Under the pieces are notes generated by a model that saw only the letters and a program-made list of their open reading frames with translations, made no database searches and was not told the origin of the DNA. The position numbers were made by a program, and so were the translations under genes. A stretch of DNA of 64,000 nt from assembly GCA_026129865.1 (NCBI GenBank), contig JAHCHG010000008.1, forward strand, positions 62,001 to 126,000. The letters are read 5' to 3'. The stretch comes from Pyrinomonadaceae bacterium. GTDB lineage: Bacteria; Acidobacteriota; Blastocatellia; Pyrinomonadales; Pyrinomonadaceae. The first letter of the stretch is position 1. Every line of letters begins with the position of its first letter. Of the stretch, positions 36,952 to 56,477 are shown piece after piece.

Positions 36952-37989
36952 ATGAAAAGAAAGTTTCGAGTTTCGAAAATTGGACAAAAAAGGCACTTAA
37001 AAGAAATCAGGTATAAATCCGAGTTTCAAATTGCATGGAACAAACACATACCGGAACTCAAGAACTTCGAACTGCAGTCTGTAGACTTTTTGACAATTTC
37101 CGGCGATGCACCGAAAGACTTTATCATTGATCGAGAATATCGTCCGGGACACCGCAGCGCCCGATCGCCGAAGGACAAATTCATTGCTAAGGTCGGTTCA
37201 AAGTACTATCCGTTGGAATCGATCATTGAACAATTTATCACTCGAATCGGTCAGATATTTGACCTTAATATAGCCGACTCGAAGTTGCGTACTATAGACG
37301 GGCAAGTGCGATTTCTCAGCAAGTATTTCTTAAAGGCCGGCGAACAGCTTACGCATGGCGCGGAAATATACGAATATTCCATCGGTAGAGAAAATTACGC
37401 AGAACTCTCGGAAAAAAAGCTGGAAGCCGACTATTTCACGTTTCAAATGACATGCGAAGCCATTAATGTTCTTATTCCCGACGACGATAAGAAAATCGTG
37501 GGCGGTTATGTCGAAATGCTGACCTTTGATGCGGTAATAGGACATAACGACCGTCATCCTTACAATTGGGGCATGATAGTTCCACTTCAGAAAAAGAAGC
37601 CGCCGCGATTTGCGCCGGTTTTCGACACAGCTCGCGCCTTATTCTGGAACATTCCTGAAAAGCGGGTCGTCACAATGCTGACGAATAAAGCTTCTTTTGA
37701 AGCTTATATCCACGGATGTCAACCGCCAATTGGATGGGATGACAGGGAAAATGTTGATTTTTTTGAACTGATAGGTTTAATCTGGATCGAGTTTCCGGTT
37801 TATCGAAAACACATCGAAAAATTCCTGGAAACGGACAAACTAGAAAGAATTAATGAGGTTTTGGATAGTGAATTTGGCGAATTGTTAAGCGCCGAGCGCC
37901 GCGAACTTATTAAAAGGTGTCTGCATCAAAGACAAAGTAAACTAAAAGAAACGATCAAGGCATTTGAGAAAGAGCAGGAAGAGTTATGA
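36952..37989 (+). CDS. HipA-type Ser/Thr kinase lacking the HipA N-terminal domain (HipT-like)
   Basis: A 345-residue protein resembling the kinase body of HipA toxins. The catalytic segment VIGHNDRHPYNWGMI corresponds to the HipA D-G-H-x-K-N loop. FAPVFDTARALFWN corresponds to the metal-binding segment. KFIAKVG near residue 76 contains the probable ATP lysine, followed by an IIEQFITRIGQIFDL helix like that of HipA. The N-terminal beta domain of HipA is missing and is encoded by the next gene. Family members phosphorylate aminoacyl-tRNA synthetases or other targets and arrest growth; the substrate here is unknown. No HipB-like repressor gene is adjacent. The next gene overlaps by four bases. 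Confidence 0.8.
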   Translation: MKRKFRVSKIGQKRHLKEIRYKSEFQIAWNKHIPELKNFELQSVDFLTISGDAPKDFIIDREYRPGHRSARSPKDKFIAKVGSKYYPLESIIEQFITRIGQIFDLNIADSKLRTIDGQVRFLSKYFLKAGEQLTHGAEIYEYSIGRENYAELSEKKLEADYFTFQMTCEAINVLIPDDDKKIVGGYVEMLTFDAVIGHNDRHPYNWGMIVPLQKKKPPRFAPVFDTARALFWNIPEKRVVTMLTNKASFEAYIHGCQPPIGWDDRENVDFFELIGLIWIEFPVYRKHIEKFLETDKLERINEVLDSEFGELLSAERRELIKRCLHQRQSKLKETIKAFEKEQEEL

Positions 37990-38393
37990 AAACGATTATG
38001 CAGCGGGCAAAGGAATGGCTCGGAATGAGACAGGAATTTAAGGCTCCTTCACCTGAAGTGAAAGCCGAATTTTTGCTTTTTCACGGCAGCCTCCTCGTTG
38101 GAACCTTAAATGTAATTGAAGGACATTGGCAGTTTAAGTATTCGGAAGAATTTAAACTTCGGACGGAATTGCGCCCATTGGTCGAATTTCCCGACCTGGA
38201 TAAAATCTATAAAAATGAAGAACTCTGGCAATTTTTTGCTTCACGGATTCCGAGTACGGAGCAGCCGGATGTAGAGGAAGTTTTGGAAACCGAAAACATT
38301 GACGAAACCGATGTTGTCGCATTACTCAAACGGTTCGGGACGAGAACGATTACCAATCCGTTTGAGCTGAAATATAACAATGCGGTTGGTTAA
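37986..38393 (+). CDS. HipA N-terminal-domain protein (HipS-like)
   Basis: A 135-residue protein matching the N-terminal domain of HipA. FHGSLLVGTLNVIEGHWQFKY followed by LRPLVEFPDL and WQFFASRIPS parallels HipA segments RVGEL..FKYAPEW, RPLSLSLP and FNFFDNLLPD. The end, VVALLKRFGTRTITNPFEL, parallels the DLLSEIG segment. The first 20 residues are basic and helical. In the HipBST system a separate HipS subunit restrains kinase HipT. This gene probably plays the same role, but it follows the kinase instead of preceding it. Translation is coupled through ATGA. Confidence 0.72.
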   Translation: MKTIMQRAKEWLGMRQEFKAPSPEVKAEFLLFHGSLLVGTLNVIEGHWQFKYSEEFKLRTELRPLVEFPDLDKIYKNEELWQFFASRIPSTEQPDVEEVLETENIDETDVVALLKRFGTRTITNPFELKYNNAVG

Positions 38394-38843: not shown

Positions 38844-39857
38844 ATGAAAATAAAGAATTCTGATTCGGGCGCAGGTCGGGAAAAACTTCAGCTTCATATT
38901 TTCGGAAGTTTAAGTTCGATTCATAAAGCACTTGCCTCAAAAACCTATCCGACAACCGCCGAGCTTGCCGGGCAATTGGAAGTTTCCGCACGAACGGTTC
39001 GCCGCTATATCGAATTTATGCGCGACCGTTTCAATGCGCCGATCTCATTTGACCGCGCAAGGAACGGGTTTTATTACACACATCCGAATTGGCAATTGCC
39101 GCTTGTTCCGCTGACCGAAGGCGAACTTCTCGCGTTTTTTATCGCAACGATCGCTTTGCAGGGCAAAGGCGCGACCTATGAAGAGAAAACTCTCCGCCGC
39201 GCGCTCGGCAAGATCGCAGTTTCGCTGCCCGACGAGATCTCGGTCAATCTCGGCTATCTTTTCGATCACACCTCTTTTCAATCGCCGCCGCATGTCATCG
39301 CGGAAATGGAAACGCTCGATCGGCTGCGCCGCTGTGTCGCAGTGCGTGAGGCGGTCGAATTTGATTACACTTCGCCAAACTCCGGCACGAGCCGCCGCTT
39401 GGCTCATCCGCTGCATCTTTTCAACCACGAAGGCACCTGGTACGCCGTCTGTTTCGACCCGGAGAAAAAAGATTTCCGGAATTTCCATCTCGCACGCATT
39501 TCTAATCTAAAGGCAAAAGCGACCTATTTCGAGCCGCCGAAAAATTGGGATAAAGAACGGCATCTGGAAAAAGGTTTCGGAATGTACAGCGGCGGCAGCG
39601 AAACCGGGGTCGAAATAATTTTCGATAAATACCAGGCGCAATGGATGCGCGAACGAACCAAATTTCACCCCGGCGAAACGCGCGAAGAACTCGCCGATGG
39701 AAGCCTGAAACTCACCTTCACCGTCGGCGAAAACGCCCTCGAAGCCGTAGCCAGATTTTGTCTGACCTACGCCGGGAATTTTATCGCGGTAAAACCGGAA
39801 AAATTGCGAGAAATTATCAAGAAGAAACTGCGGCATGCATTAAGACAGCACGAATAA
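38844..39857 (+). CDS. WYL-domain transcriptional regulator
   Basis: A 337-residue DNA-binding protein. The N-terminal winged helix-turn-helix is in YPTTAELAGQLEVSARTVRRYIEFMRD (residues about 33-58). A WYL ligand-binding domain follows, with AVEFDYTSPNSG, AHPLHLFNHEGTWYAVCFDPE and the RNFHLARISNLK segment, then a C-terminal WCX-like extension. WYL proteins often regulate CRISPR-Cas and other defence loci and may sense nucleic-acid ligands. The gene ends four bases before cas3, so it is almost certainly co-transcribed with it and likely controls the cas operon or itself; that target is inferred from context. Confidence 0.92.
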   Translation: MKIKNSDSGAGREKLQLHIFGSLSSIHKALASKTYPTTAELAGQLEVSARTVRRYIEFMRDRFNAPISFDRARNGFYYTHPNWQLPLVPLTEGELLAFFIATIALQGKGATYEEKTLRRALGKIAVSLPDEISVNLGYLFDHTSFQSPPHVIAEMETLDRLRRCVAVREAVEFDYTSPNSGTSRRLAHPLHLFNHEGTWYAVCFDPEKKDFRNFHLARISNLKAKATYFEPPKNWDKERHLEKGFGMYSGGSETGVEIIFDKYQAQWMRERTKFHPGETREELADGSLKLTFTVGENALEAVARFCLTYAGNFIAVKPEKLREIIKKKLRHALRQHE

Positions 39858-39861
39858 ACTG

Positions 39862-42693
39862 ATGAACATAATCAACTTCTGGGCGAAAACTTCAAATCAC
39901 GATGATTGCAAAAACGGGTTTCATCCACTGGTCTGCCATTTAACGGACGTTGCAGCAGTAACGAAAAAGATGTGGGACGAAGTCTTGCCCGAAGCGGCAA
40001 AAAAAAGAATCAATGAAAATTTCGGCGTGGAAAATGCCGGAAACTTGGTCGCCTTTATCGCCGGACTTCACGATCTCGGCAAATGTTCGCCGCCTTTTAC
40101 TTTGCGCGGACATAACGAAGAAGGTAAACAAACCGCAAGACTTCTCGATCTTTATCGAAACGAAGAAATTTGGACGGATTCGGCGGAGAAATCCACAAAT
40201 GCGCCGCATGGTTACATTACGGCAATCGAACTTCCCGAACTTCTCGAGGGATTCGGAATAAAAGGAAAAGCTGCTGATCAAATTGCGGTGTTGATCGGCG
40301 GTCATCACGGCGTTTTTCCGAATTCCGATTGGCGCAAAGGCGGAAACAAAGCGATTGAAAAAAATCTCGGAAAGGAAAGTTGGCGAAAAGCGAGACTCGA
40401 ACTAACCGAAACGCTCGCCCAATTGCTCGACGTGAAATCGTTAGAACCCAACAAATCGATCAAACTTGACAATGCGTCGATTATGATTTTAGCCGGACTC
40501 GTTTCCGTCGCCGATTGGATCGGCTCGGACACGCAGTTTTTCAAGTGCGAAATCGAAGATTTTGAAAAAAGCATTAATGTAAATTTAACCGAATATCTTG
40601 TCAAAGCCGAAAAACAAGCCGGACACGCGTTGGAACAATTAGGCTGGCTTGATTGGGCGCAAACCGACGAATCAAAGCAGTTTCTTGAACTTTTTCCGAA
40701 ACTCAAAAAACACGGCTTACGGCAATTGCAAAAAGATGTCGTGAAAATTGCCGAAGAGTTAAAATCACCGGGCATCGTCGTCATCGAATCGCCGACGGGC
40801 GAAGGGAAAACCGAAGCGGCGATGTTTTTAGCCGACACTTGGAACATTAACCTCAAGCAGACCGGCATCTATTTCGCGCTGCCGACCATGGCGACGAGCA
40901 ATCAGATGTTCACCAGAGTCGTCGAATTTCTCGAAGACAGATTTGAGGGCGGAAAAGTTCAAACGCAGCTTCTTCACGGTAAAGCCGTATTTTCCGATGA
41001 TGCCGACAAATTAAAAAAACGATTTCGCCAAGAACTCGAAAAGAAACTCGATTACGGTCATCAATCAACCGAAGCGGAAATTAAAACTCTCGAAAACGGC
41101 GAGAAACAGGAAATACACGGCATTCACGATGAAAATTGCGGCGATTGTATTCCGTCAGTCGTCGCGGCGGAATGGTTCACGGCACGCAAACGCGGACTTC
41201 TCGCACCATTCGGAGTCGGCACGATAGATCAAGCGTTAATGGCGGTTTTGCAGACCAAGCACGTTTTCGTCCGCCTTTTCGGACTCGCTCACAAAACCGT
41301 GATTATTGACGAAGTTCACGCCTACGACGCTTATATGTCCACGCTTTTGGAACGCCTGCTTGAATGGCTCGCCGCTTTGGGGTCGCCCGTGATTTTATTG
41401 AGCGCGACTCTGCCGATTGAACGCCGGAATAAATTGATCGAGGCTTATCAAAAAGGTTTGGGCGTTGGCACGGACGAGATACAAAAAGCCGTCTATCCGA
41501 GAATTTCTTACGCGACGGATTCGACGATAAATGTGCGAAAAATTGACGTTTCAACCAAAAGCCGAACTTTGCACGTCGAAAAAGCCGATGAAAATTTCAT
41601 CGAAAAGCTGAAAGCGAAACTCGAAACGGGCGAAGGATGCGTTGCGATTGTCTGCAACACGGTTCAGCGGGCGCAGGACATTTACGAAGAATTGTCGAAA
41701 GACGATTTTTTCAAAGATAAAATTGATCTGCTGCACGCCCGTTTTCGCTACATTGACCGCGAAAAACGCGAAAGAAGAGTCTTAGAGAGATTCGGCAAAC
41801 CCGACGAATTAGGCGAAAGTCCCGAACGCCCGAAACGCGCCGTTTTAATCGCCACGCAAATTATCGAACAATCGCTCGATCTCGACTTCGATCTGATGAT
41901 TTCCGATCTCGCTCCCATTGATCTGCTTTTGCAGCGTGCGGGCAGACTTCACCGCCACGACAGAACGAGAAGCGGAGAGTTTAAAACTCCGACGCTTTGG
42001 CTCATCGAACCGAAAATCACGGGCGACTGCGAGCCGAATTTTGAAAACAGTGTTGTTTATGACGAACACATATTGCTTCGCACTTGGCTGGCTTTGCAAA
42101 AAATCAAGAAAATCGAAATACCAGATGAAGTCGAGAAATTAATCGAAGCGGTTTATGACTTGGAAAAACCTTTTGAAAATTTAGATGAAAATCTAAAAGT
42201 TTTATGGCAAACGAGTCTGGAAAACTGCTTGAAGGCAGAAGAAGATGACGATGAGCAAGCGTCTTATCGTTTGATAAAACGTCCGAGTTACAGCCGACAC
42301 ATCAGCGGAATTTTTGCGAACAATCTGGAAGAAGATTCGCCGGAAATCCATAAAACTCTGCAAGCCGTAACCCGTTTAACGCAGCCGACGGCAACCGTCA
42401 TCTGTTTGTGGGAAAAGGGCGGCAAAATCTTTTTAGACGACGATTTTTCGGAAGAAATAATTTTAAGCAAAAAACCGAATATAAAATTAACCAAAGAATT
42501 ATTAAAGCGGTCGGTTGGAGTTTCCAAAAAATCCGTCGTGTTCAAATTATTAGCAGAAGACGTTGAGAAAAGTTGGCAGAATTCCGCTCTGCTGCGCCAT
42601 CATCGAATTCTAAAATTTGATGAAAGCCGAAAATGTGAAAAATTCGGAAATATATTCTGTTTAGACGAAAATCTTGGGTTACAAATTTTCTAG
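39862..42693 (+). CDS. cas3: CRISPR-associated helicase/nuclease Cas3 (type I-E)
   Basis: Cas3 is recruited by target-bound Cascade and unwinds and degrades DNA. The 943-residue protein has an N-terminal HD nuclease domain: His26 in CHLTDV, His70-Asp71 in GLHDLGK and the later GGHHGVFP. A superfamily 2 helicase follows: Walker A SPTGEGKTEAA near residue 310, motif II IIDEVHAYDAY near 482, motif III LLSATLP and motif VI QRAGRLHRH. A C-terminal domain of about 230 residues completes it. All catalytic residues expected of an active enzyme are present. It sits between the WYL gene and a 243-base regulatory gap, separate from the Cascade operon. Confidence 0.96.
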   Translation: MNIINFWAKTSNHDDCKNGFHPLVCHLTDVAAVTKKMWDEVLPEAAKKRINENFGVENAGNLVAFIAGLHDLGKCSPPFTLRGHNEEGKQTARLLDLYRNEEIWTDSAEKSTNAPHGYITAIELPELLEGFGIKGKAADQIAVLIGGHHGVFPNSDWRKGGNKAIEKNLGKESWRKARLELTETLAQLLDVKSLEPNKSIKLDNASIMILAGLVSVADWIGSDTQFFKCEIEDFEKSINVNLTEYLVKAEKQAGHALEQLGWLDWAQTDESKQFLELFPKLKKHGLRQLQKDVVKIAEELKSPGIVVIESPTGEGKTEAAMFLADTWNINLKQTGIYFALPTMATSNQMFTRVVEFLEDRFEGGKVQTQLLHGKAVFSDDADKLKKRFRQELEKKLDYGHQSTEAEIKTLENGEKQEIHGIHDENCGDCIPSVVAAEWFTARKRGLLAPFGVGTIDQALMAVLQTKHVFVRLFGLAHKTVIIDEVHAYDAYMSTLLERLLEWLAALGSPVILLSATLPIERRNKLIEAYQKGLGVGTDEIQKAVYPRISYATDSTINVRKIDVSTKSRTLHVEKADENFIEKLKAKLETGEGCVAIVCNTVQRAQDIYEELSKDDFFKDKIDLLHARFRYIDREKRERRVLERFGKPDELGESPERPKRAVLIATQIIEQSLDLDFDLMISDLAPIDLLLQRAGRLHRHDRTRSGEFKTPTLWLIEPKITGDCEPNFENSVVYDEHILLRTWLALQKIKKIEIPDEVEKLIEAVYDLEKPFENLDENLKVLWQTSLENCLKAEEDDDEQASYRLIKRPSYSRHISGIFANNLEEDSPEIHKTLQAVTRLTQPTATVICLWEKGGKIFLDDDFSEEIILSKKPNIKLTKELLKRSVGVSKKSVVFKLLAEDVEKSWQNSALLRHHRILKFDESRKCEKFGNIFCLDENLGLQIF

Positions 42694-42697
42694 TAAT

Positions 42698-42776
42698 TTT
42701 CCATCTCCACGTGCGTAGAGAAAATTTTTGACTTAACCCATATTTACGGTTCATCTCCACGTGCGTAGAGAAATCT
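42698..42776 (-). ncRNA. Two-repeat degenerate mini-CRISPR encoding a crRNA-like RNA (CreR/CreA candidate)
   Basis: On the minus strand a first pseudo-repeat (42776-42748, 24 of 29 bases like the array repeat) is followed by a 21-nt pseudo-spacer (42747-42727) and a second pseudo-repeat (42726-42698, 22 of 29). Both carry the same three stem changes, giving CTCTACG/CGTGGAG in place of CTCCGCG/CGCGGAG: one G-C pair became A-T and one C-G became T-G, so the Cas6e hairpin is kept. The first copy keeps the exact 8-nt 5' handle ATGAACCG; the second has lost it (ATGGAAAA), which a last repeat does not need. The pseudo-spacer begins TAAATATG. It starts four bases after the cas3 stop, antisense to cas transcription. 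Confidence 0.85.
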
Positions 42777-42823
42777 GAATCCATTGTCTGATTTATGATG
42801 AAAAAATTCAAGATAGAGGTGTT

Positions 42824-42847
42824 TTCATACTTTACTCATATTTACTT
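42824..42847. promoter_or_regulatory. Predicted Cascade operator: partial protospacer with AAG PAM
   Basis: On the minus strand AAG (42847-42845) is followed by 21 bases (42844-42824) that match the pseudo-spacer at positions 1-8, 10, 11, 13-16, 20 and 21, that is 16 of 21. Of the five mismatches (9, 12, 17, 18, 19), positions 12 and 18 are ones that type I-E Cascade flips out and does not read. AAG is the canonical type I-E PAM. The site overlaps the presumed -35 element of the cas8e promoter, so binding should block transcription. Poor distal pairing should prevent cleavage. Confidence 0.75.
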
Positions 42848-42869
42848 ACTTTAAAGTTGTAATCATATT
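42841..42869 (+). promoter_or_regulatory. Candidate promoter of the cas8e-cas2 operon
   Basis: TTTACT (42841-42846) and CATATT (42864-42869) lie 17 bp apart in an AT-rich stretch, about 70 bases upstream of cas8e. The hexamers are imperfect, so this is only the best candidate by position. Confidence 0.4.
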
Positions 42870-42936: not shown

Positions 42937-44469
42937 ATGATTAGTTTTAACTTGATTGAAGAAAAATGGCTGCCGTGCGTGATGCTCGATAACCCTTTGA
43001 AGGATTTGAGTTTAAGAGAAGTTTTGACAAACGCAACTGAAATCCGCGAACTTGTCGGCGATTCGCCGCCGGTTACGATTGCTTTGCATCGTCTTTTGTT
43101 GGCGATTTTGCATCGTGCGCTGAATGCTCCGCAAAGTTATGAAGATTGGGAAAATTATTGGCGGGCGAAATCTTGGAACGAAGAAGGAAAATTGGTCAAA
43201 TATCTTGACGATTGGAAGCAACGGTTTGATTTATTTGATGAAAAACGTCCGTTTTATCAGGTCGGTTCGGTAAAAGACAGCGTGCAGGACGGAGCGATTA
43301 TTCAACTCTATTTTCAAGGGAAAAATAACGCCACGCTTTTCGAGCATTCGACGATAGAAGAACCTAACGCCGTTTCGCCCGCCGAAGCCGCGAGATTTTT
43401 GGTGGCGTTTCAAGGTTTCGATTTCGGCGGAATAAAAGCCGACGGTTCGGCACAAACCGCGCCTTTGCTGCAAAGCGCGATTGCTTTAATTCGCGGGAAA
43501 AATCTTTTTGAAACTTTGATGCTGAATTTTCACGCATACAGCGAAACGGACGAAATGCCGTTCAGATTTAACTTCAAAAATGATCTTCCCGCTTGGGAAC
43601 GTGAAGAAACCGAATCAAAAGAACGGCAAACGCAAGGTTACGTTGATCTTTTAACTTGGCAGGCGCGGCGGATTCTGCTTCAACCCGAACAAAATGAAAA
43701 CGGCGACATTAGCGTTAAAGATTCGGTAATTATGAAAGGTTTTCAATTTCCGAAAAGTTACCAACGCGATAAACAGGAAACAATGATGGCTTTCAGAAAA
43801 AGCAAAACCGAAGGCTTTTATTCGCTCGGTTTCAACGAAAACAAAGCGTTGTGGCGGGACAGCATTTCGCTTTTTCAAACGGTTAAAGACGAACAATACC
43901 GCCCGAAAACTCTGGATTGGCTGAACGAACTCGCTTACGAAGGCGTTTTACAAAGGACGAAAGAATATCCGATAGAATTTTACGGTCTTGCCGCCGACAA
44001 AGGAAAGCTGCTTTTTTGGCAGCAGGACAGATTTAATTTGCCGCTTGCTTATTTGAACGACAACGAATTGCTGAACGATCTTAAACAAGCAATTCAATTT
44101 GCAGAAGAAATCAGCGGAGTTTTAAGGTTTGCCGTTAAGATTTTGGCTGAACAGCTAGAATCGGACGCGAACAGTTTTCCGGCGATGGCGGTTTATTGGG
44201 CGAGTTTGGAAAATCGTTTTCAAGAACTGCTTTCCGATTTGCCTAATAATAAGGAAGCGGGGATGCAAAAATGGTTCGGGTTTGTTGATAAAACGGCGAA
44301 ACGGGCTTTTGAAGATACGGCGAACAGTTTGAGCGGTTCGGCAAACGAGCAAAAGGCGATTGTCGAAGCCGAAAGCACGTTTTATAAAACGCGGGCGAAA
44401 TTATTAAAGACGAATTCGGAATACGCGCAATTTTTGCCGAATTATAAAACAAAAGGAGGAGTGGAATGA
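42937..44469 (+). CDS. cas8e: Cascade large subunit Cas8e (Cse1/CasA)
   Basis: Cas8e recognises the PAM in target DNA and recruits Cas3. The 510-residue protein begins FNLIEEKWLPCVMLD, the typical Cse1 opening, and contains LSLREVLTNATEI, the segment PPVTIALHRLLLAILHRAL, FQGFDFGGIKADGSAQTAP and a C-terminal helical bundle. AAGGGG precedes the start. It is the first gene of the operon that runs through cas2, preceded by a promoter region that contains the predicted crRNA-like target site. It overlaps cse2 by four bases. Confidence 0.95.
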   Translation: MISFNLIEEKWLPCVMLDNPLKDLSLREVLTNATEIRELVGDSPPVTIALHRLLLAILHRALNAPQSYEDWENYWRAKSWNEEGKLVKYLDDWKQRFDLFDEKRPFYQVGSVKDSVQDGAIIQLYFQGKNNATLFEHSTIEEPNAVSPAEAARFLVAFQGFDFGGIKADGSAQTAPLLQSAIALIRGKNLFETLMLNFHAYSETDEMPFRFNFKNDLPAWEREETESKERQTQGYVDLLTWQARRILLQPEQNENGDISVKDSVIMKGFQFPKSYQRDKQETMMAFRKSKTEGFYSLGFNENKALWRDSISLFQTVKDEQYRPKTLDWLNELAYEGVLQRTKEYPIEFYGLAADKGKLLFWQQDRFNLPLAYLNDNELLNDLKQAIQFAEEISGVLRFAVKILAEQLESDANSFPAMAVYWASLENRFQELLSDLPNNKEAGMQKWFGFVDKTAKRAFEDTANSLSGSANEQKAIVEAESTFYKTRAKLLKTNSEYAQFLPNYKTKGGVE

Positions 44470-45023
44470 GTGAACATATAGAACAAAAACAGACGCTTGA
44501 CGAAAAATTTGTTGGACGTTTGGAAAAATATGTCAAAGATGAAGACCGTGCGGCGTTGGCGCATTTGAGACGCGGTTTGGGGAAAGATGCTTGGACGGCG
44601 ACGGAGATGTTTCCATACGTTGCGGGTTGGACGGCGAATCTTTCAAGACGCGATGAGAACGCTTATTTTCTCGTCGCTTCGCTCGTCGGTTTGTATCCGA
44701 CTTACAGTTGGAAGCCGACTGAGAAAATAAAATTTAACAATTTAGGCAAATCTCTGTCGTTTTTAAGCGAAGACAGCGGCAGCATCGAAAAGCGTTTTAC
44801 GGCTTTGCTGAACGCCGACGATGAAGATTTGTCAGAACATTTGCGGCAAATTGTCAGTCTTTTGAAGTCGAAGGAAGCACCGATAAATTGGCATCAACTT
44901 TTACGAGACATCAAAAATTGGTCGCACGAAAATAGATTTGTCCAGAGAAGTTGGGCAAAAGGATTTTGGGGAAATTTAGAAGAGAACAAAGAACATAAAG
45001 AAGGAGAAGAAAAACAAATATGA
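44466..45023 (+). CDS. cse2: Cascade small subunit Cse2 (CasB)
   Basis: Cse2 is the small helical subunit that stabilises the crRNA and the displaced DNA strand in Cascade. The 185-residue product is all-helical, with DRAALAHLRRGLGKDAW near residue 30 and the basic ENRFVQRSWAKGFW segment near residue 160, both characteristic of CasB. ATG overlaps the cas8e stop (ATGA) and its own stop overlaps the cas7e start, so translation is coupled on both sides. Confidence 0.92.
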   Translation: MSEHIEQKQTLDEKFVGRLEKYVKDEDRAALAHLRRGLGKDAWTATEMFPYVAGWTANLSRRDENAYFLVASLVGLYPTYSWKPTEKIKFNNLGKSLSFLSEDSGSIEKRFTALLNADDEDLSEHLRQIVSLLKSKEAPINWHQLLRDIKNWSHENRFVQRSWAKGFWGNLEENKEHKEGEEKQI

Positions 45024-46177
45024 TTTTAGAATTACACTTAATACAAAACTTTGCACCGTCAAACTTGAACAGAAGCGACACGGGTTCGCCGAAAGACTGC
45101 ACATTCGGCGGTTTTCGGCGAGCGAGAATTTCGAGCCAATGTTTCAAACGGGCGATGCGCGAGCATTTTCGGGAAAATTTTTCGGCGCAAGATAATTTAG
45201 CCGAAAGATCAACGAGACTTGTCGAAGCAATCAGCAAACATTTAATTGAAAACGGCAAAGATGAAGCGGAAGCCAAAGGTGTCGTCGAAACGGCTTTGAG
45301 CGGAGTCGGCTTGAAAATGTCGTCGAAAGACGCGACAAAAACGCAGTATTTACTGTTCTTAGGGCGCGAGGAAATCAAAGAAGTCGCCGATGTTTGTTTG
45401 GAAAATTATGACGCGTTGCTTAAAATTACACCGAAAACCGAAGAGGGAATGACGGCGAAGGAAGCGAAAAAAGCGGCGAAGGGTTCTGTTCCGCCGGAAA
45501 TTTCAAAGGCTTTGAAAAATGTTTTGGACGGCGGCAAGGCTTCCGATCTCGCACTTTTCGGCAGAATGCTGGCGGATTTGCCGGACAAAACCCGCGACGC
45601 TTCTTCGCAGGTCGCGCACGCGATTTCGACGCACAAAGTCGGAATGGAATTCGACTTTTTCACGGCAGTTGACGATTTAAAGCCGGAAGAACAATCGGGT
45701 TCGGATCATCTCGGCACGGTTGAGTTTAATTCGGCGTGTTTTTATCGTTACGCGAATGTCAATATCGAAAAGCTAAAGGACAATCTGCAAGGCGACGAAG
45801 ATTTAACGCGGGCGACGATTGAAGCGTTTATCCGTTCGGCAATCGAAGCGATTCCGACGGGCAAGCAAAATTCGTTTGCGACGCACGAAAGACCGAGTTT
45901 TGTGTTGGCGGTAGTTGGCGATGCGGGTAAATGTTCGCTGGCGAATGCGTTTGAAAAACCTGTTAAGGCGAGCGAAAAGAAAGGTTTGGTGGAAAGTTCG
46001 ATTGAAAATTTCGCCGCGCATTGGGAAGCGATTGCCGAAATTTACGGCGATGATGCGAAGGCAAAAAATTGTTTTAAGGTTAAAACCGCAGATGTTGATC
46101 TGAAATCTTTGAAAAACAATGATGCCGGAAATGTCGAAACATTGATAAATAACACGATGAAGGCGATTTTCGCGTAA
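45020..46177 (+). CDS. cas7e: Cascade backbone subunit Cas7e (Cse4/CasC)
   Basis: Cas7e polymerises along the crRNA spacer to form the Cascade backbone. The 385-residue protein begins LELHLIQNFAPSNLNRSDTG and has FGGFRRARISSQCFKRAMRE, the nucleic-acid-binding region typical of Cse4. HKVGMEFDFFTAVDDL and GTVEFNSACFYRYANVNIEKL follow, then RPSFVLAVVGDAG. The start overlaps the cse2 stop. Because each subunit covers six bases, the short 21-nt pseudo-spacer near cas3 would give a smaller complex. Confidence 0.96.
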   Translation: MILELHLIQNFAPSNLNRSDTGSPKDCTFGGFRRARISSQCFKRAMREHFRENFSAQDNLAERSTRLVEAISKHLIENGKDEAEAKGVVETALSGVGLKMSSKDATKTQYLLFLGREEIKEVADVCLENYDALLKITPKTEEGMTAKEAKKAAKGSVPPEISKALKNVLDGGKASDLALFGRMLADLPDKTRDASSQVAHAISTHKVGMEFDFFTAVDDLKPEEQSGSDHLGTVEFNSACFYRYANVNIEKLKDNLQGDEDLTRATIEAFIRSAIEAIPTGKQNSFATHERPSFVLAVVGDAGKCSLANAFEKPVKASEKKGLVESSIENFAAHWEAIAEIYGDDAKAKNCFKVKTADVDLKSLKNNDAGNVETLINNTMKAIFA

Positions 46178-46195
46178 AAACGATGAGGTAAAAAT

Positions 46196-46951
46196 ATGAA
46201 ATACACATTGCTTTTGCGCTTAAAAGCACCGATGCAGTCGTGGGGCGTTTCAAGCCGTTTTTCGATTCGTGATACGGGCAAAGAGCCTTCAAAATCCGGC
46301 GTAATCGGTTTGCTGTGCGCCGCGCTCGGCATCTCGCGTGATGAAGCAAATTTGGAAAACGAGCAATTTAAGAAATTAACAAAACTGAAAATGAACATCC
46401 GCGTTTTGCGCGAAGGCGTGATGCAGAAGGATTATCACACGGCGCAAAATGTAGCGAAAGCGGCGGGCGGAACGAAACCAACGGAACTTTCAGACCGTTG
46501 GTTTTTGGCAGACGCTGATTTTTTGGTCGGTTTGGAGAGCGAAGATTTTTCGTTTTTGGAGAATCTTCAAAACGCTCTGAAAAAACCGAAATGGCAGTTA
46601 TTTTTAGGGCGCAAGGCATTCGTCCCGAGCGTTCCGGTTTATTTTCGGAACGGCGTTTTAACGAATGAAACGGATGAGTGTTTTCTGAAAAGTAAAACGG
46701 TAGAAAAAACTCTTGTCGAACACGATAAGGATTCGAATTTTCAAAAACCGAAATACGTTGGGAAACAACGCTTAATATGTGAACCGAAAGACGGCGAAGA
46801 CGGTGCGGAAGTACGGCAGGACGTGCCTCTTGATTTTGCTAAAAGGCTCTTTAGCCTGCGGCGGGTTCGCACGGAGTTTTTCACCCCTGTCGAAATCTCA
46901 GAAGGAGGAAAGGTAAATGAAGGAAATCTATCTGACACGAATGACGCTTAA
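46196..46951 (+). CDS. cas5e: Cascade subunit Cas5e (CasD)
   Basis: Cas5e binds the crRNA 5' handle and caps the Cascade backbone. The 251-residue RAMP protein begins YTLLLRLKAPMQSWGVSSRF, a near-diagnostic CasD opening, followed by SGVIGLLCAALGISRDE and later RWFLADADFLVGLE and LGRKAFVPSVPVYF. The reading frame extends 35 bases into cas6e, so these genes overlap. The ribosome-binding site of cas6e lies inside the end of cas5e. Confidence 0.95.
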   Translation: MKYTLLLRLKAPMQSWGVSSRFSIRDTGKEPSKSGVIGLLCAALGISRDEANLENEQFKKLTKLKMNIRVLREGVMQKDYHTAQNVAKAAGGTKPTELSDRWFLADADFLVGLESEDFSFLENLQNALKKPKWQLFLGRKAFVPSVPVYFRNGVLTNETDECFLKSKTVEKTLVEHDKDSNFQKPKYVGKQRLICEPKDGEDGAEVRQDVPLDFAKRLFSLRRVRTEFFTPVEISEGGKVNEGNLSDTNDA

Positions 46952-47690
46952 TCCGCGCTCCAATCAGGTGCGCGCGGAGGTCGGAAATCCCCGCGAACTG
47001 CACAAGACTATCTCCAGAGCTTTTCCTCCTGTCGAAAATCCGCCCGATGCAAAACCGCATGAGCGGAAGACTCCGCGCAATGAATACAACATTCTACACC
47101 GGCTTGAGATCGAACGGCTTCGCGGAAAAGCTTATTTACTTGTCCAATCCGAACACGAGCCGGACTGGAGTTTCCTGCACCATAAGGATTATGCCGACGA
47201 AGTTGAAACAAAAACCGTCGGCGATAGATACGCTGCAATAGAAAATGGAACGCGGCTCATCTTTCGTCTTCAGGCAAACCCGGCTAAACGCGTTGCAAAC
47301 AGATACGAGTACCCGATCGAAACTCAGCGCGAAGAGTTTGACAGGAGGTTCAAAGATGGAAAGATCCGGCGGCGCGTTGCGCTTGTCACAGAAGAAGATC
47401 AGATAAACTGGTTAATTCGGCAGGGCGTGAACGGCGGGTTCGGCGTTGAAAACGTTACGGTCGATCCGGCGGTTCGCAACGTCGTCGCAATCAGCGAAGG
47501 AAAGATCAAATTCAAAAAGCTGGAAAAAGCCGGCGCGAACGGCGGAGACCCCGTAACCTACGGCTCCGTCGTCTTCGAGGGCGTTCTGCGTGTCGATGAT
47601 GCCGAAAAATTTCGCAAAGCATTAACCTCCGGCATCGGTCAGGGAAAAGCTTACGGATTCGGACTGCTTTCAATCGCTCCTGCGAGGTGA
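46917..47690 (+). CDS. cas6e: crRNA-processing endonuclease Cas6e (Cse3/CasE)
   Basis: Cas6e cuts the pre-crRNA at the base of each repeat hairpin and stays bound to it. The 257-residue protein has the conserved His in ELHKTISRAFP (about residue 29) and a C-terminal Gly-rich RNA-binding loop GIGQGKAYGFGLLSI. GGAGGAAAGGTAA precedes ATG 46917. This enzyme would also have to process the degenerate repeats near cas3, whose stem keeps length and pairing. Confidence 0.95.
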   Translation: MKEIYLTRMTLNPRSNQVRAEVGNPRELHKTISRAFPPVENPPDAKPHERKTPRNEYNILHRLEIERLRGKAYLLVQSEHEPDWSFLHHKDYADEVETKTVGDRYAAIENGTRLIFRLQANPAKRVANRYEYPIETQREEFDRRFKDGKIRRRVALVTEEDQINWLIRQGVNGGFGVENVTVDPAVRNVVAISEGKIKFKKLEKAGANGGDPVTYGSVVFEGVLRVDDAEKFRKALTSGIGQGKAYGFGLLSIAPAR

Positions 47691-47697
47691 TTAATTT

Positions 47698-48642
47698 ATG
47701 AAATTAAAAGATCTGCACACGTTGCCAAAGGTGCGCGACAGCCTCAGTTATCTTTATGTCGAACATTGCCGCATCGAACAGGATTCCAAGGCTATCGCAA
47801 TTTACGATGTCGAAGGCAAAACTTCCGTTCCCTGCGCCAATCTGTCGACACTTCTCATCGGTCCCGGTTCGACCATCACCCATTCAGCGGTAAAATCGCT
47901 TGCCGACAACGGCTGTCTGGTGCTGTGGTCGGGCGAGGGCGGAGTTCGCTTTTATGCACAGGGTCTCGGCGAAACGCGTTCTGCGCGCCATCTGCTGAGG
48001 CAGGCTTATCTGAGCTCGGTTCCCGAACTTCGTCTTCGCGTTGTCCGGCGAATGTATGAAATGCGTTTCAACGAATCGCTCGACGAATCGCTAACTTTGC
48101 AGCAAATTCGCGGCAAGGAAGGGGTTCGCGTCCGAACGGCTTACGGTCAGGCGAGCGAGCGAACCGGTGTCGAATGGACCGGTCGTTCGTATAACCGCAC
48201 AAATTGGTTCGATTCTTCACCTATAAACCGCGCGCTTTCGTCGGCAAACAGCTGTCTTTACGGCGTTTGCCATGCTGCCATCGTATCCGCCGGATATTCC
48301 ACCGCACTCGGGTTTATCCATATCGGGAAAATGCTTTCGTTCGTTTATGATATCGCCGACCTTTACAAAGCCGATTTAACCATTCCCGTTGCTTTCGAAA
48401 TGGTCGCGGAATCCGAAGTCGACCTGGAAAAGAGAATTCGACACCGGCTTCGAGACCAATTTTACGAACAGCGTTTTCTTCAAAGGATCATTCCGGATAT
48501 CGAACAGGCGCTGGACGTAAAGATCGAAGAATCCGAATTCGATTTTGACGACGCCGCGCCCGCCGGACTCTGGGACGGTGGCGATTCTTCGGTTTCCGGC
48601 GGTGTCAACTGGGCAGATGACCCGGAGGGCGAAGCGCAATGA
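47698..48642 (+). CDS. cas1: CRISPR integrase Cas1e
   Basis: Cas1 with Cas2 inserts new spacers beside the leader. The 314-residue protein has an N-terminal beta domain (SKAIAIYDVEGKTSVPCANL) and a helical catalytic domain. The metal-binding residues fit Glu in RGKEGVRVR, His in GFIHIGKMLS and Asp in FVYDIADLYK. GRSYNRTNWFDSSPINRALS is typical of type I-E Cas1. GAGGTGA precedes the start, and its last codon overlaps cas2. Confidence 0.97.
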   Translation: MKLKDLHTLPKVRDSLSYLYVEHCRIEQDSKAIAIYDVEGKTSVPCANLSTLLIGPGSTITHSAVKSLADNGCLVLWSGEGGVRFYAQGLGETRSARHLLRQAYLSSVPELRLRVVRRMYEMRFNESLDESLTLQQIRGKEGVRVRTAYGQASERTGVEWTGRSYNRTNWFDSSPINRALSSANSCLYGVCHAAIVSAGYSTALGFIHIGKMLSFVYDIADLYKADLTIPVAFEMVAESEVDLEKRIRHRLRDQFYEQRFLQRIIPDIEQALDVKIEESEFDFDDAAPAGLWDGGDSSVSGGVNWADDPEGEAQ

Positions 48643-48980: not shown

Positions 48981-51900
48981 ATTTTCTCCGCGCACGCGGA
49001 GATGAACCGAGTTGGTTATCGGCAACCTGAAACTGTACGGAATTTTCTCCGCGCACGCGGAGATGAACCGGACAGCTGAACTTTTCAAAAAAGCAAAGCA
49101 GAATTTTCTCCGCGCACGCGGAGATGAACCAGCGGTTCAGAAAAATGGTTGAAACTGTCTGCAATTTTCTCCGCGCACGCGGAGATGAACCGTTTCCTGG
49201 GATGAAAAGCTTTACAAAAACATCATTTTCTCCGCGCACGCGGAGATGAACCGGCGTAACGGTCGAAGCGACAAATTCGCATTCAATTTTCTCCGCGCAC
49301 GCGGAGATGAACCGGCTCATCTGTCTGAATCGGCTACGTTTCGGAAATTTTCTCCGCGCACGCGGAGATGAACCGTAAGCGTATCGGGAATTGATTTAAA
49401 ACTGCAAATTTTCTCCGCGCACGCGGAGATGAACCGGTTTTTGCGGTGATGGCTTTGTGTCCGCAGCAATTTTCTCCGCGCACGCGGAGATGAACCGCCT
49501 GCCGCGGTTGCGGACGTTCTTTTCGGCAAATTTTCTCCGCGCACGCGGAGATGAACCGACTTGAATTTGACATCCGATTCAGGCGAGATGATTTTCTCCG
49601 CGCACGCGGAGATGAACCGATTATTCACGACGCCCCCTGCGTCTTTCCAAAATTTTCTCCGCGCACGCGGAGATGAACCGCCGGAGCGAACATTTTAGAT
49701 AACGGTAAACCGATTTTCTCCGCGCACGCGGAGATGAACCGTTCAAACCGATGCAGTCGGAGATTATATTCTCATTTTCTCCGCGCACGCGGAGATGAAC
49801 CGCCTGCCCATAGCGAACCGCCGATGATCCGCCCCATTTTCTCCGCGCACGCGGAGATGAACCGTGGCTTTCCGTCCGGTCCGACATCCTCTTGTAATTT
49901 TCTCCGCGCACGCGGAGATGAACCGAAACCGCGCGGGTCGGCGCTTGCTATTCCTACATTTTCTCCGCGCACGCGGAGATGAACCGGTTCCTATTTTGTC
50001 AATACAGGATAAAACCGCATTTTCTCCGCGCACGCGGAGATGAACCGCCGAAAAGCCATTGTTACCGATAGCGGCTAAAATTTTCTCCGCGCACGCGGAG
50101 ATGAACCGATGAAAGCGTTTAGGGAAATGTCGAAATTAACATTTTCTCCGCGCACGCGGAGATGAACCGTGAGTTTTATTACGTCTTTTCGCTCCGGCTC
50201 CATTTTCTCCGCGCACGCGGAGATGAACCGAAATCGGCGTCGCGGCGTTCGCCCAAAATTCCATTTTCTCCGCGCACGCGGAGATGAACCGAAGATCGAC
50301 GCCGACACGCTGAAAACCCTTATATTTTCTCCGCGCACGCGGAGATGAACCGATCGCCGGTTTCGATCATAGAAAATTCAAAAAATTTTCTCCGCGCACG
50401 CGGAGATGAACCGAGAAAGGTTGGTAAGGTTGTAAGGTGGGATGGATTTTCTCCGCGCACGCGGAGATGAACCGACGCCGAACGGATCGAACGGGTATGC
50501 GGACACATTTTCTCCGCGCACGCGGAGATGAACCGATCCGCTTCTTTACGATTCGCCGGGAACGATCATTTTCTCCGCGCACGCGGAGATGAACCGGCAT
50601 ACTGTCGATCGGAGAAGAGAGATGCTATATTTTCTCCGCGCACGCGGAGATGAACCGGATTCCCGCGCGAAACCATCATTTTTACTTTCATTTTCTCCGC
50701 GCACGCGGAGATGAACCGACTCTCCGGCGTCCAGCTAACGTGTTGACTGAATTTTCTCCGCGCACGCGGAGATGAACCGGAGTTTTACAAATGCCTGAAG
50801 AAAACGACAAAATTTTCTCCGCGCACGCGGAGATGAACCGGTTTGCGTTCGAACGTCGATGAATTTGAACGCATTTTCTCCGCGCACGCGGAGATGAACC
50901 GAACACAGTCTTTGCCTTGCTCTGGACAAAAAGATTTTCTCCGCGCACGCGGAGATGAACCGACGCAGATCGCTTCGCAAAACGCTGTTCGGCGATTTTC
51001 TCCGCGCACGCGGAGATGAACCGTGATCAGCGCCATGCAGCTTATCAGCACGGCGATTTTCTCCGCGCACGCGGAGATGAACCGTATATAACATTTCTGA
51101 GTGATAATTCGATTGAATTTTCTCCGCGCACGCGGAGATGAACCGCGTATTTTTGAGCCGTAAAGCTCGCGACCGGCATTTTCTCCGCGCACGCGGAGAT
51201 GAACCGCAGTTTGATAAGGAAGTTTCGGTGCGCGTAACATTTTCTCCGCGCACGCGGAGATGAACCGGAGTTTTACAAATGCCTGATAACGAAAAAGACA
51301 TTTTCTCCGCGCACGCGGAGATGAACCGTTACCGTTTTCGTTCCCGTTGCCGATGTAACGATTTTCTCCGCGCACGCGGAGATGAACCGGACGAAAGAGA
51401 CTTATGCCTTTAAATGTAAACATTTTCTCCGCGCACGCGGAGATGAACCGCGTTTCAACCGTATCGAGCGTTCCCGGCGCGAATTTTCTCCGCGCACGCG
51501 GAGATGAACCGAAAGAATTCGAGGTCTTTATCGTCAATTTCGTATTTTCTCCGCGCACGCGGAGATGAACCGCATTCCCGCTTCGACGTGTTGAATGTTT
51601 TGCTATTTTCTCCGCGCACGCGGAGATGAACCGCGAAACGAAAGATGATCACGGTAACGGCTGAAATTTTCTCCGCGCACGCGGAGATGAACCGAACCCA
51701 GAACCCGTCGGCGTTTCCGGCTCGATATTTTCTCCGCGCACGCGGAGATGAACCGTTCGCCCGTGAGCAAGCCAAAACGAATAAATGATTTTCTCCGCGC
51801 ACGCGGAGATGAACCGGCGATCAGGCTAAACGTCAGAACCTTTATGAAATTTTCTCCGCGCACGCGGAGATGAACCGCTCGAACATTCGCGGGAAACGAT

Positions 51901-54900
51901 CGATCAGTCCATTTTCTCCGCGCACGCGGAGATGAACCGGAGACATATGATCATTACTTACCAACACAGCGATTTTCTCCGCGCACGCGGAGATGAACCG
52001 ACAGAAGTTGGATTTGTGGAATTCAACGAATACATTTTCTCCGCGCACGCGGAGATGAACCGTTTTCTAGGTATACCTGTCAAGAGAAAAAAAGATTTTC
52101 TCCGCGCACGCGGAGATGAACCGTAGCCAGATCATAAAATCAACATTGCGGCGTCATTTTCTCCGCGCACGCGGAGATGAACCGCCGTTCATCGCATTTT
52201 CAACAGACATTTCGGCATTTTCTCCGCGCACGCGGAGATGAACCGCTGCGGGCAACAGCGAAGATGTCGCGGTCGCCATTTTCTCCGCGCACGCGGAGAT
52301 GAACCGACCAAGTGATTTGCTCGAGATTCCCGAAAGCCATTTTCTCCGCGCACGCGGAGATGAACCGAAGTGTGTCCCCAACCATTAAGTCGGCGTTATA
52401 TTTTCTCCGCGCACGCGGAGATGAACCGAGTCTTTTCTGATTAGAAAGAACCCTATACCCATTTTCTCCGCGCACGCGGAGATGAACCGATCGCGACCAG
52501 ATCAAATGACCAGATCGCGACATTTTCTCCGCGCACGCGGAGATGAACCTCCGTAGTCAGCTTGAAGCCGAATACCGTTGAAATTTTCTCCGCGCACGCG
52601 GAGATGAACCGTTTGGAAAATCCGCTACATCAACGCCTTCAACATTTTCTCCGCGCACGCGGAGATGAACCGACGATTACGATAACACTCTCAGGGTCTT
52701 TCTAATTTTCTCCGCGCACGCGGAGATGAACCGCCGACAGCGACGGCAATGTCCGCACGGGCGTTATTTTCTCCGCGCACGCGGAGATGAACCGTGCCTG
52801 CTACGAACGTAGCTCGCCCGGAAAAAATTTTCTCCGCGCACGCGGAGATGAACCGCAGTTGCGCCTCTTCGCGTTCGCCTACCATGAATTTTCTCCGCGC
52901 ACGCGGAGATGAACCGATCAGATTTTAATGAAACAAGCATGGCGGGAAATTTTCTCCGCGCACGCGGAGATGAACCGTTTCCTTGATATATGGAACTGCA
53001 TTCAGCGTGGATTTTCTCCGCGCACGCGGAGATGAACCGTCAATAAGTTTTTGCAAATCGCCTTGCGCTTTATTTTCTCCGCGCACGCGGAGATGAACCG
53101 CTGATCAGATTGTTTTCAGGATCGCGGACGCGATTTTCTCCGCGCACGCGGAGATGAACCGCGATTGCAAAAGATCAAGCTTTCGATTTTGTTATTTTCT
53201 CCGCGCACGCGGAGATGAACCGAAAAGAGACGGCTGCATATTTTCAAAACCTCCATTTTCTCCGCGCACGCGGAGATGAACCGGCTCGAGGAACTTCACG
53301 GGCTGCTTGGCGACAATTTTCTCCGCGCACGCGGAGATGAACCGGATCAATTAAATGGGCAGAAAAAGCGCGGTCGATTTTCTCCGCGCACGCGGAGATG
53401 AACCGTTTTCCAGCTTGCAATTCTCCTGACCGCGAAGATTTTCTCCGCGCACGCGGAGATGAACCGGCGGCGGAAATTTCGCGGTTGGTCAAACCGTCAT
53501 TTTCTCCGCGCACGCGGAGATGAACCGAACTACCGGTTTATCGCCATCTTCGCGATAAAATTTTCTCCGCGCACGCGGAGATGAACCGTTTTCCATGTTC
53601 TCGGGAGTATTTAACAGATAATTTTCTCCGCGCACGCGGAGATGAACCGTTCTAGAATTTCCGCTTTTTCCTCTGTCGAGACATTTTCTCCGCGCACGCG
53701 GAGATGAACCGTTCGCACCGCGCAAGTCCGCACCGCGCAAGTTCATTTTCTCCGCGCACGCGGAGATGAACCGTACCAAAATCAACTTTACACACTTTCT
53801 CAACAAATTTTCTCCGCGCACGCGGAGATGAACCGTTGACGAAGTTGCGCTGAAGAAATTCCATAACATTTTCTCCGCGCACGCGGAGATGAACCGACGG
53901 TTTTGCCGATGGCATAAACAAAAATACAATTTTCTCCGCGCACGCGGAGATGAACCTGAATATCCGGGATTTAACCATTGAGTCGTAGCATTTTCTCCGC
54001 GCACGCGGAGATGAACCGTTTCGGAGCCTTTCTTTCGTGATTTCTTGCCATTTTCTCCGCGCACGCGGAGATGAACCGTCGGGCGGCATTCGCACGATTA
54101 GGTGCAGGAAATTTTCTCCGCGCACGCGGAGATGAACCGGTCGCTTTATCGCAACCAGTCGAAATGATCACATTTTCTCCGCGCACGCGGAGATGAACCG
54201 TAGGTAGAGCCGACCTGAAACTCATAAAGTTCATTTTCTCCGCGCACGCGGAGATGAACCGAGTTCGTCGCCTTCCAGCAGCAGCAGTTTCTCATTTTCT
54301 CCGCGCACGCGGAGATGAACCGAAGACAATTCGGAGCCGCCTTTGGATTTTCGCATTTTCTCCGCGCACGCGGAGATGAACCGGTCGTCAGATCGGAGCC
54401 GGAGACAACTGGTTCATTTTCTCCGCGCACGCGGAGATGAACCGGCTCGAGCGGCGAAACATGGCGAATGAAAATAATTTTCTCCGCGCACGCGGAGATG
54501 AACCGAACGGACAAGAAAAAACTTATTGACTTGGAAATTTTCTCCGCGCACGCGGAGATGAACCGAAAAATGTCACACGGATTAAAAGGAAAGGTCAATT
54601 TTCTCCGCGCACGCGGAGATGAACCGATCCTGCGAAACCAAACCGCCCATTAAACCCTTATTTTCTCCGCGCACGCGGAGATGAACCGCTGGGCGCGGTC
54701 GACGTTCATCGAATCCGCGGATTTTCTCCGCGCACGCGGAGATGAACCGAGTTTCTGCTTCATTGTAAGATCGCTCACATCATTTTCTCCGCGCACGCGG
54801 AGATGAACCGCCGCCATCATCGCAAACTACGCTAGAAAATTCATTTTCTCCGCGCACGCGGAGATGAACCGTCCCCGGCTCCGGGGTCTGCCAGATGTGA

Positions 54901-56153
54901 ACCATTTTCTCCGCGCACGCGGAGATGAACCGCAAGCTCGAGAATACTCGATGTTCGTGTCATTATTTTCTCCGCGCACGCGGAGATGAACCGATTTTAT
55001 CAATATCCATATTAACTTGTTTGACATTTTCTCCGCGCACGCGGAGATGAACCGCGATTGAAGCGCGGCATTTCCGCCGCGTGAACATTTTCTCCGCGCA
55101 CGCGGAGATGAACCGGAAGCTTACCGGTATTGCGACGGCTGCTTAAAATTTTCTCCGCGCACGCGGAGATGAACCGCCGGTTGCCGACCCAGACGTGGGG
55201 GATAGCACATTTTCTCCGCGCACGCGGAGATGAACCGAGGGAGTTTGAGGGAGAAATGTCACATTAAAAATTTTCTCCGCGCACGCGGAGATGAACCGGA
55301 TTATTCGGCTGACGTAATGGCGCGAGCCGCATTTTCTCCGCGCACGCGGAGATGAACCGGTTTAGATGTGAGATTCGAAAGTATTGAACACATTTTCTCC
55401 GCGCACGCGGAGATGAACCGAGTCAAGCAAATGCTTGAGTCAATTCGGTCAAATTTTCTCCGCGCACGCGGAGATGAACCGAACAGTATTTTCAGTTTCA
55501 ACCCGGAAACGGGCATTTTCTCCGCGCACGCGGAGATGAACCGAAAACCGATCCGGATTCGATCGCTTACGCCGAATTTTCTCCGCGCACGCGGAGATGA
55601 ACCGAAGGTGCGGAAGACGTCGACGCGGACGTTGACATTTTCTCCGCGCACGCGGAGATGAACCGCAAGCTGATGCGAAGCAAGCTGATGCGAAGCAATT
55701 TTCTCCGCGCACGCGGAGATGAACCCGTCTGAAGCGAGTTCTGACACAATGTGAATAAATTTTCTCCGCGCACGCGGAGATGAACCGATATGCTCAAATC
55801 GGGCGGTTTTCTTTTAATAATTTTCTCCGCGCACGCGGAGATGAACCGACCAGTTGCGCGAGGAGATCGCGTTTGCGGTCATTTTCTCCGCGCACGCGGA
55901 GATGAACCGGTCAAATTCGAGTAGGGGTTTGATGTGTTCCAATTTTCTCCGCGCACGCGGAGATGAACCAGGACGAAATTATTGAAATCGAAATAGGTTC
56001 AAATTTTCTCCGCGCACGCGGAGATGAACCGAAGGAAAAGTGTTTTTGGTTCGCGGCGCGTGGATTTTCTCCGCACACGCGGAGATGAACCGTTCAGGCA
56101 TCCGGCGTTTCTATCGCGTATCCAATTTTCTCCGCGCACGCGGAGATGAACCA
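48981..56153 (+). CRISPR. Type I-E CRISPR array, 118 repeats and 117 spacers
   Basis: The 29-bp repeat begins ATTTTCTCC, has a hairpin CTCCGCG/CGCGGAG and ends in the crRNA handle ATGAACCG. I located all 118 copies by position. The period is almost always 61 bp (32-bp spacers), with nine 62-bp and two 60-bp steps. Repeats are nearly invariant: six differ only in the last base (ending at 49131, 52550, 53957, 55726, 55970 and 56153), and the copy at 56064 has one internal G-to-A change. Orientation relative to cas2 puts the newest spacers on the left. Both strands are open over long distances because the repeat lacks stops; the resulting frames are not genes. Confidence 0.99.
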
Positions 56154-56185: not shown

Positions 56186-56425
56186 GTTTTCTCGGCGGAC
56201 GCGGAGATGGGGCTTTTTTCACGGCTGAAGCCGTAACTCTGGCGGGGGTTAGTCGGCATGTGCGGAGATGGGGCTTTTTCACGGCTGAAGCCGTAACTCT
56301 GGCGGGGGTTAGTCGGCAGGAGCGGAGATGGGGCTTTTTCACGGCTGAAGCCGTTACTCTGGCGGGGGGTTAGTCGGCAGGTGCGGAGATGAGGCTTTTT
56401 CACGGCTGAAGCCGTTACTCTGACG
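56186..56425. repeat. Decayed array end turned into a 60-bp tandem repeat with palindromic element
   Basis: Exactly 61 bases after the last repeat a degenerate copy appears (56186-56214, TTTTCTCGGCGGACGCGGAG). Its GCGGAGATG core recurs at 56262, 56322 and 56383, keeping the array's 60-61 bp period. Each interval carries the same sequence: a T run, then TTCACGGCTGAAGCCGT at 56218, 56278, 56338 and 56399, then ACTCTGGCGGGGG and TTAGTCGGC. The palindromic core is identical to that of the repeats at 13192-13305. Confidence 0.88.
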
Positions 56426-56477
56426 GGATGCCGGGGGTTATTCGATACTTCCCAATAAATCTGCTAAATTCCAACTG

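Follow-up and report, generated by a model that had tools for sequence, protein, structure and literature searches.

Introduction

In type II-A CRISPR systems, a natural single guide, the long tracrRNA, autoregulates Cas9. The cas-regulating RNAs termed CreR are reportedly owed to Liu et al. 2023 (Cell Host Microbe 31:1481), the source that three reviews credit for them (PMC13131331, PMC12737573, and PMC12948488). As summarized in one of these reviews, CreR bring about autorepression in type I-B, I-E, and V-A systems through partial complementarity to the promoter. CreA, the antitoxin RNA of CreTA modules, requires a seed comprising positions 1–5 and 7–11, and creA genes display the same pattern of repeat decay as the degenerate repeats (psi-repeats) considered here (PMC8501985).

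The stretch of DNA analyzed, a window of 64,000 nucleotides, carries a complete type I-E locus with a mini-CRISPR between cas3 and cas8e. Judging from its sequence, this mini-CRISPR very probably encodes a CreR by which Cascade would repress its own operon.

Results

A mini-CRISPR between cas3 and cas8e

The features of the locus are collected in Table 1; cas2 was identified from sequence reading. The main array has spacers of 31–33 nt. The 244-nt gap between cas3 and cas8e holds two extra repeats, 50 nt apart and on the opposite strand, which constitute a minus-strand mini-CRISPR reading toward the 3′ end of cas3. The element extends from 42697 to 42847, not over positions 42727–42869 as given in the original prediction. 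A whole-genome search for repeat-like sequences returned 119 forward and 2 reverse hits, which, among the matches listed, fall only in the main array and the two mini-CRISPR repeats. Rfam contains no family for the mini-CRISPR element and gave chance-level hits only.

Table 1. Annotated features of the type I-E locus, in window coordinates
Feature	Position	Strand	Basis
WYL-domain transcriptional regulator, adjoins cas3	38844–39857	+	Pfam WYL/WCX/HTH_11
cas3, upstream neighbor of mini-CRISPR	39862–42693	+	Pfam Cas3_HD and helicase
psi-repeat 2, ATTTTCTCTACGCACGTGGAGATGGAAAA; hairpin and 5′ part preserved, final 8 nt decayed (4/8)	42697–42725	-	
Pseudo-spacer (putative CreR guide), 21 nt, TAAATATGGGTTAAGTCAAAA	42726–42746	-	
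psi-repeat 1, GATTTCTCTACGCACGTGGAGATGAACCG; Cas6e hairpin, intact 8-nt 5′ handle ATGAACCG	42747–42775	-	
Tentative mini-CRISPR promoter: TTGAAT (42811–42806), 17 nt, GACAAT (42788–42783)	42783–42811	-	sequence reading; weak
Target protospacer in cas8e promoter region, TAAATATGAGTAAAGTATGAA	42824–42844	-	
AAG PAM (CTT on + strand)	42845–42847	-	
Tentative cas8e promoter: TTTACT (42841–42846), 17 nt, CATATT (42864–42869)	42841–42869	+	sequence reading; weak
cas8e (cse1), first gene of Cascade operon, presumed regulated gene	42937–44469	+	Pfam PF09481, E=9e-105
cse2, cas7e, cas5e, cas6e, cas1	44466–48642	+	Pfam
Main I-E array, 118 repeats, ATTTTCTCCGCGCACGCGGAGATGAACCG	48981–56153	+	

Both mini-repeats have the common hairpin CTCTAC-GCAC-GTGGAG, which differs from the array hairpin, CTCCGC-GCAC-GCGGAG, with one compensated pair (G-C to A-U) among the changes. 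The mini-repeat hairpin is nearer to the hairpin found in the arrays of the nearest relatives, CTCCAC-GCAC-GTGGAG (15/16 positions), than to that of its own array (13/16) and may thus preserve an older repeat. psi-repeat 1, at whose 5′ end transcription from the tentative mini-CRISPR promoter would start, has lost its own 5′ end and retains a handle identical at 8/8 positions to the last 8 nt of the array repeat. psi-repeat 2 has kept its 5′ end (5/5) and its hairpin and has lost the handle. Decay limited to the parts that lie outside one mature crRNA is the trace that would be expected from selection for that crRNA.

Other features surround the locus. Two adjoining ORFs at 36952–38393, near the CRISPR locus, encode HipA C-terminal and HipA N-terminal (Couple_hipA) domains and are a candidate split HipA-like toxin-antitoxin. 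At the distal end of the array (56190–56440) lie tandem copies of ~60 bp in which the 3′ portion of the CRISPR repeat (GCGGAGATG) occurs together with a single recurring “spacer” sequence (GGGGCTTTTTTCACGGCTGAAGCCG...). Directly upstream of cas3 in the window (38844–39857) and in loci L128, L129, L132, and L133 sits a transcriptional regulator, of the WYL-domain or another type, an arrangement in several I-E loci that suggests a second control layer; the WYL protein is a possible second regulator of the window locus.

The pseudo-spacer matches a site in the cas8e promoter region

The predicted 8-nt seed was borne out: the pseudo-spacer is identical to the target at positions 1–8 and at 16 of 21 positions overall. 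AAG stands immediately 5′ of the target and on the correct side, as had also been claimed (42824–42847, minus strand, AAG-TAAATATGAGTAAAGTATGAA). AAG was taken as the I-E PAM by assumption, and a comparison of main-array spacers with phage records gave no usable protospacer for checking the PAM of this system. When the 164-nt promoter was dinucleotide-shuffled 20,000 times, an AAG-flanked 8-nt seed arose at a frequency of 0.00055; shuffling the spacer gave 0.00165. The best seed among the 118 array spacers against the same promoter is 4 nt long, and the PAM-plus-seed sequence AAGTAAATATGNGTNA occurs in the 4.4-Mb genome a single time, at this site.

The spacer–target mismatches are at positions 9, 12, 17, 18, and 19. 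In type I-E complexes, Cascade leaves guide positions 12 and 18 unpaired (flipped-out), and the assignment of two mismatches to these positions was confirmed. As the mismatch at position 9 is an rG:dT wobble and positions 12 and 18 are flipped-out, the only true mismatches are 17 and 19 and pairing runs almost unbroken to position 16, so that the “weak distal pairing” of the original prediction is an understatement. Position 9 is wobbled in the window guide, though the published essential positions of CreA are 1–5 and 7–11. Relative to an immune crRNA, complementarity is limited, with 16/21 identity over a 21-nt guide.

The target site precedes cas8e by ~90 nt, and its PAM and seed are overlapped by the tentative cas8e promoter. 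The proposed overlap with a −35 element is accordingly seen for the tentative TTTACT hexamer, but each hexamer of this promoter has 4/6 consensus positions, and a consensus scan of the cas3–cas8e gap at a stricter threshold found no promoter, for which reason the promoter is graded weak.

Equivalent elements recur in other type I-E loci

In a main collection of 86 I-E loci, 207 hairpin-plus-handle candidates were located near cas3 or cas8e; this form of search was used because a repeat-profile scan alone missed degenerate copies of psi-repeat 1. Each candidate was given a seed score over positions 1–11 without position 6 against an AAG-flanked site in its own region, with the regions of other loci as the control. 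A score of at least 9 of 10 was reached by 8 of the 207 candidates versus 0.33 expected, and a score of 10 by 4 candidates versus 0 in the control. These eight strict matches, whose seeds are mutually unrelated, are the window (L001), a genome of the same family (L005/L116), L038, L061, L065, L074 (Chloroflexota), L082 (Desulfuromonadaceae), and L068, which is on a contig binned as Nanosynbacter and probably misbinned. A score of at least 9 is also reached in four of nine additional loci, all nine from named organisms.

The genome of the same family has its mini-CRISPR in the same gap and on the same strand, with a match to its own promoter, and an equivalent layout is found in Chloroflexota, Cyanobacteriota, Gammaproteobacteria, and Escherichia coli K-12. 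Overall, the design was found in at least 14 other I-E loci, with unrelated seeds that each match the cas promoter of their own locus. The gene after the matched site is usually cas8e, cas3, or a small ORF before cas3. As read by eye, the PAM overlaps a clear −35 hexamer in L061, L074, and L082, and in L038 the site is just downstream of TTGACA-17-TATCAT.

CreR-like elements were observed in the cas3–cas8e gaps of Pseudoalteromonas piscicida (L127, score 9), Acaryochloris marina pREC1 (L132, score 10), and a Synechococcus elongatus plasmid (L133, score 10). The cas3–casA gap of E. coli K-12 MG1655 (L126:7354–7540) contains a CreR-like element, ACCTTCCCTACTTAAGTAGGGATAAACCG then TTATTGGTCTTATTATCGTCA, the guide of which matches AAG-TTATTCGTTTTATTATT upstream of casA with mismatches at positions 6 and 9 and is then paired to position 16. 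In three other E. coli strains, the spacer of this element differs at positions 12 and 28 only.

Searches across the order, class, and phylum of the window yielded no element closer than that of the same-family genome; the extra loci from the phylum search (L118–L125) were excluded from the upstream-region scan. The two nearest cas8e relatives (50% identity) and L004 have no cas3–cas8e gap and no element there. A search of genome contigs with the window Cas8e alone gave no close relatives, and an alignment query was used instead; a search of viral contigs for Cas8e relatives gave none.

Spacer and promoter site change together

The same seed test was applied to 31 I-E upstream regions from Desulfuromonadales, the order of L082. 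Four elements, one of which is L082 itself, score at least 9 versus 0.26 expected, and three score 10 versus 0. Aligned together with L068, these elements have a common psi-repeat 1 (GTTCCCTTT...AGGGATGAACCG) and psi-repeat 2 (GTTCCCCGCAAACGCGGGGATGAG). The degenerate repeats are conserved, and the spacers differ, each matching its own AAG-flanked promoter site, which indicates that seed and target change together. The original prediction had named, as a finding that would refute it, relatives in which the pseudo-spacer changes and the promoter site does not; in Desulfuromonadales the outcome was the reverse. This covariation holds for the family and not for the window copy, as no close ortholog of the window’s own element was found in the collections searched.

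Pairing geometry and guide length

Pairing was compared across 15 elements picked by seed score, about five of which are homologous, so that not all are independent; positions 6, 12, and above were outside the selection criteria. Position 12 is matched in 4 of the 15 elements, about as expected by chance, whereas position 13 is matched in all 15 and position 14 in 12 (p=0.002 for position 12 versus 13–16). Position 6 is matched in 6 of 15. A guide bound in Cascade and reading the site would be expected to leave such a six-base periodicity.

With repeats set at 29 nt and lengths counted by hand from the sequences (the automatic boundary of the script may differ by one), the guide is 21 nt long in 5 of the 15 elements (the window, L116, L068, L082, and L132) and 31–33 nt long in the other 10, with none between these classes. 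Type I-B spacers of 21–24 nt in Haloarcula bring about repression but neither interference nor priming (PMC10989794), in keeping with a guide that serves repression alone. We tentatively propose, with rather less than even confidence, that I-E CreR form two discrete length classes, that Cascade on a 21-nt guide would be about two Cas7 subunits smaller and act as a dedicated repressor that cannot license Cas3, and that at least one class switch took place within one homologous group; the E. coli K-12 cas3–casA gap is included in this proposal.

Discussion

The proposal that Cascade regulates its own operon is supported by the recurrence of the design, by covariation in the family, and by the pattern at positions 12 and 13; repression itself is inferred. 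Provided that the element is transcribed, Cas6e would process its RNA into a guide of 21 nt between an 8-nt handle and a 3′ hairpin, and Cascade would load this CreR and bind the AAG-flanked site in the cas8e promoter. Bound Cascade would block RNA polymerase, so that the genes from cas8e to cas2 are repressed, and Cas3 would probably spare the chromosome from cutting, the guide being too short and the pairing too incomplete. CreR would compete for Cascade with crRNAs from the large array; given this competition, a shortage of Cascade, its titration by crRNAs, or its inactivation by an anti-CRISPR should each raise cas expression. The predicted responses to crRNA scarcity and to anti-CRISPRs are carried over, by analogy, from published CreR work.

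Degenerate repeats, a spacer of sub-normal length, and a target next door could also be read as a decaying remnant of an old array, its self-targeting spacer acquired from the neighboring promoter and without present function. We consider this unlikely, because the hairpins are kept with a compensated pair, decay is found only where one mature crRNA does not need the sequence, and the target match was kept while the array repeat diverged; equivalent own-promoter elements moreover recur far above chance, with mismatches at positions 6 and 12. Less probable still, the mini-CRISPR could be a CreTA-type antitoxin whose regulated gene is not cas8e but a small toxin within the 90 nt that precede it. 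Its guide is designed as in creA (PMC8501985), and there is a 7-codon ORF with a start at ~42920; apart from this ORF, no toxin gene was found under the matched promoter. The ORF, however, overlaps the ribosome-binding region and start of cas8e, which is the next gene; the space between site and cas8e is only ~90 nt, and the genes that usually follow the site elsewhere also speak against a toxin.

We give the least credence, and very little of it, to a chance resemblance in which the 32-nt similarity is an AT-rich promoter duplication with no Cascade guidance. Such a coincidence would have to supply both an exact seed and a correctly placed AAG at a site that is unique in the genome, and it is at odds with independent recurrence and with mismatches at flipped positions, even though the similarity runs a few bases past the spacer and, taken as one case, a raw p of 5e-4 is hardly extreme.

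Autorepression by a CreR thus remains the preferred reading, and the window supplies another case, strongly supported and accompanied by comparative covariation, for an I-E Cascade that would measure its own level via a special guide. The CreR design is frequent enough among I-E loci for sequence analysis by itself to reveal it. Should the E. coli K-12 candidate prove genuine, it would open the best-studied I-E system to immediate testing, with a bearing on the silence of its cas promoter.

The likeness to the CreR and CreA design that was originally pointed out is upheld in the repeat-derived handle and hairpin and in the seed beside a PAM at the cognate cas promoter. Type II-A long-tracrRNA autoregulation of Cas9 likewise has an effector repressing its own promoter with a special guide and limited pairing, but the RNA and the effector are unrelated, and the window guide comes from a mini-CRISPR and not from a long tracrRNA. 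CreA of CreTA (PMC8501985) is similar in its two degenerate repeats, with the 5′ handle from psi-repeat 1 and the hairpin from psi-repeat 2, and in seed pairing that leaves positions 6 and 12 free; the target in the window is the cas8e promoter rather than a toxin RNA. Since reviews already give CreR autorepression in type I-E, the window element is, by its sequence and by comparison with CreR as the citing reviews present them, a new and well-supported example of CreR and not a new kind of system. As in those accounts, a mini-CRISPR in the cas locus has partial complementarity to a cas promoter and Cascade is the presumed repressor; relative to the CreR reported there, the window element differs in its new host lineage and its 21-nt guide.
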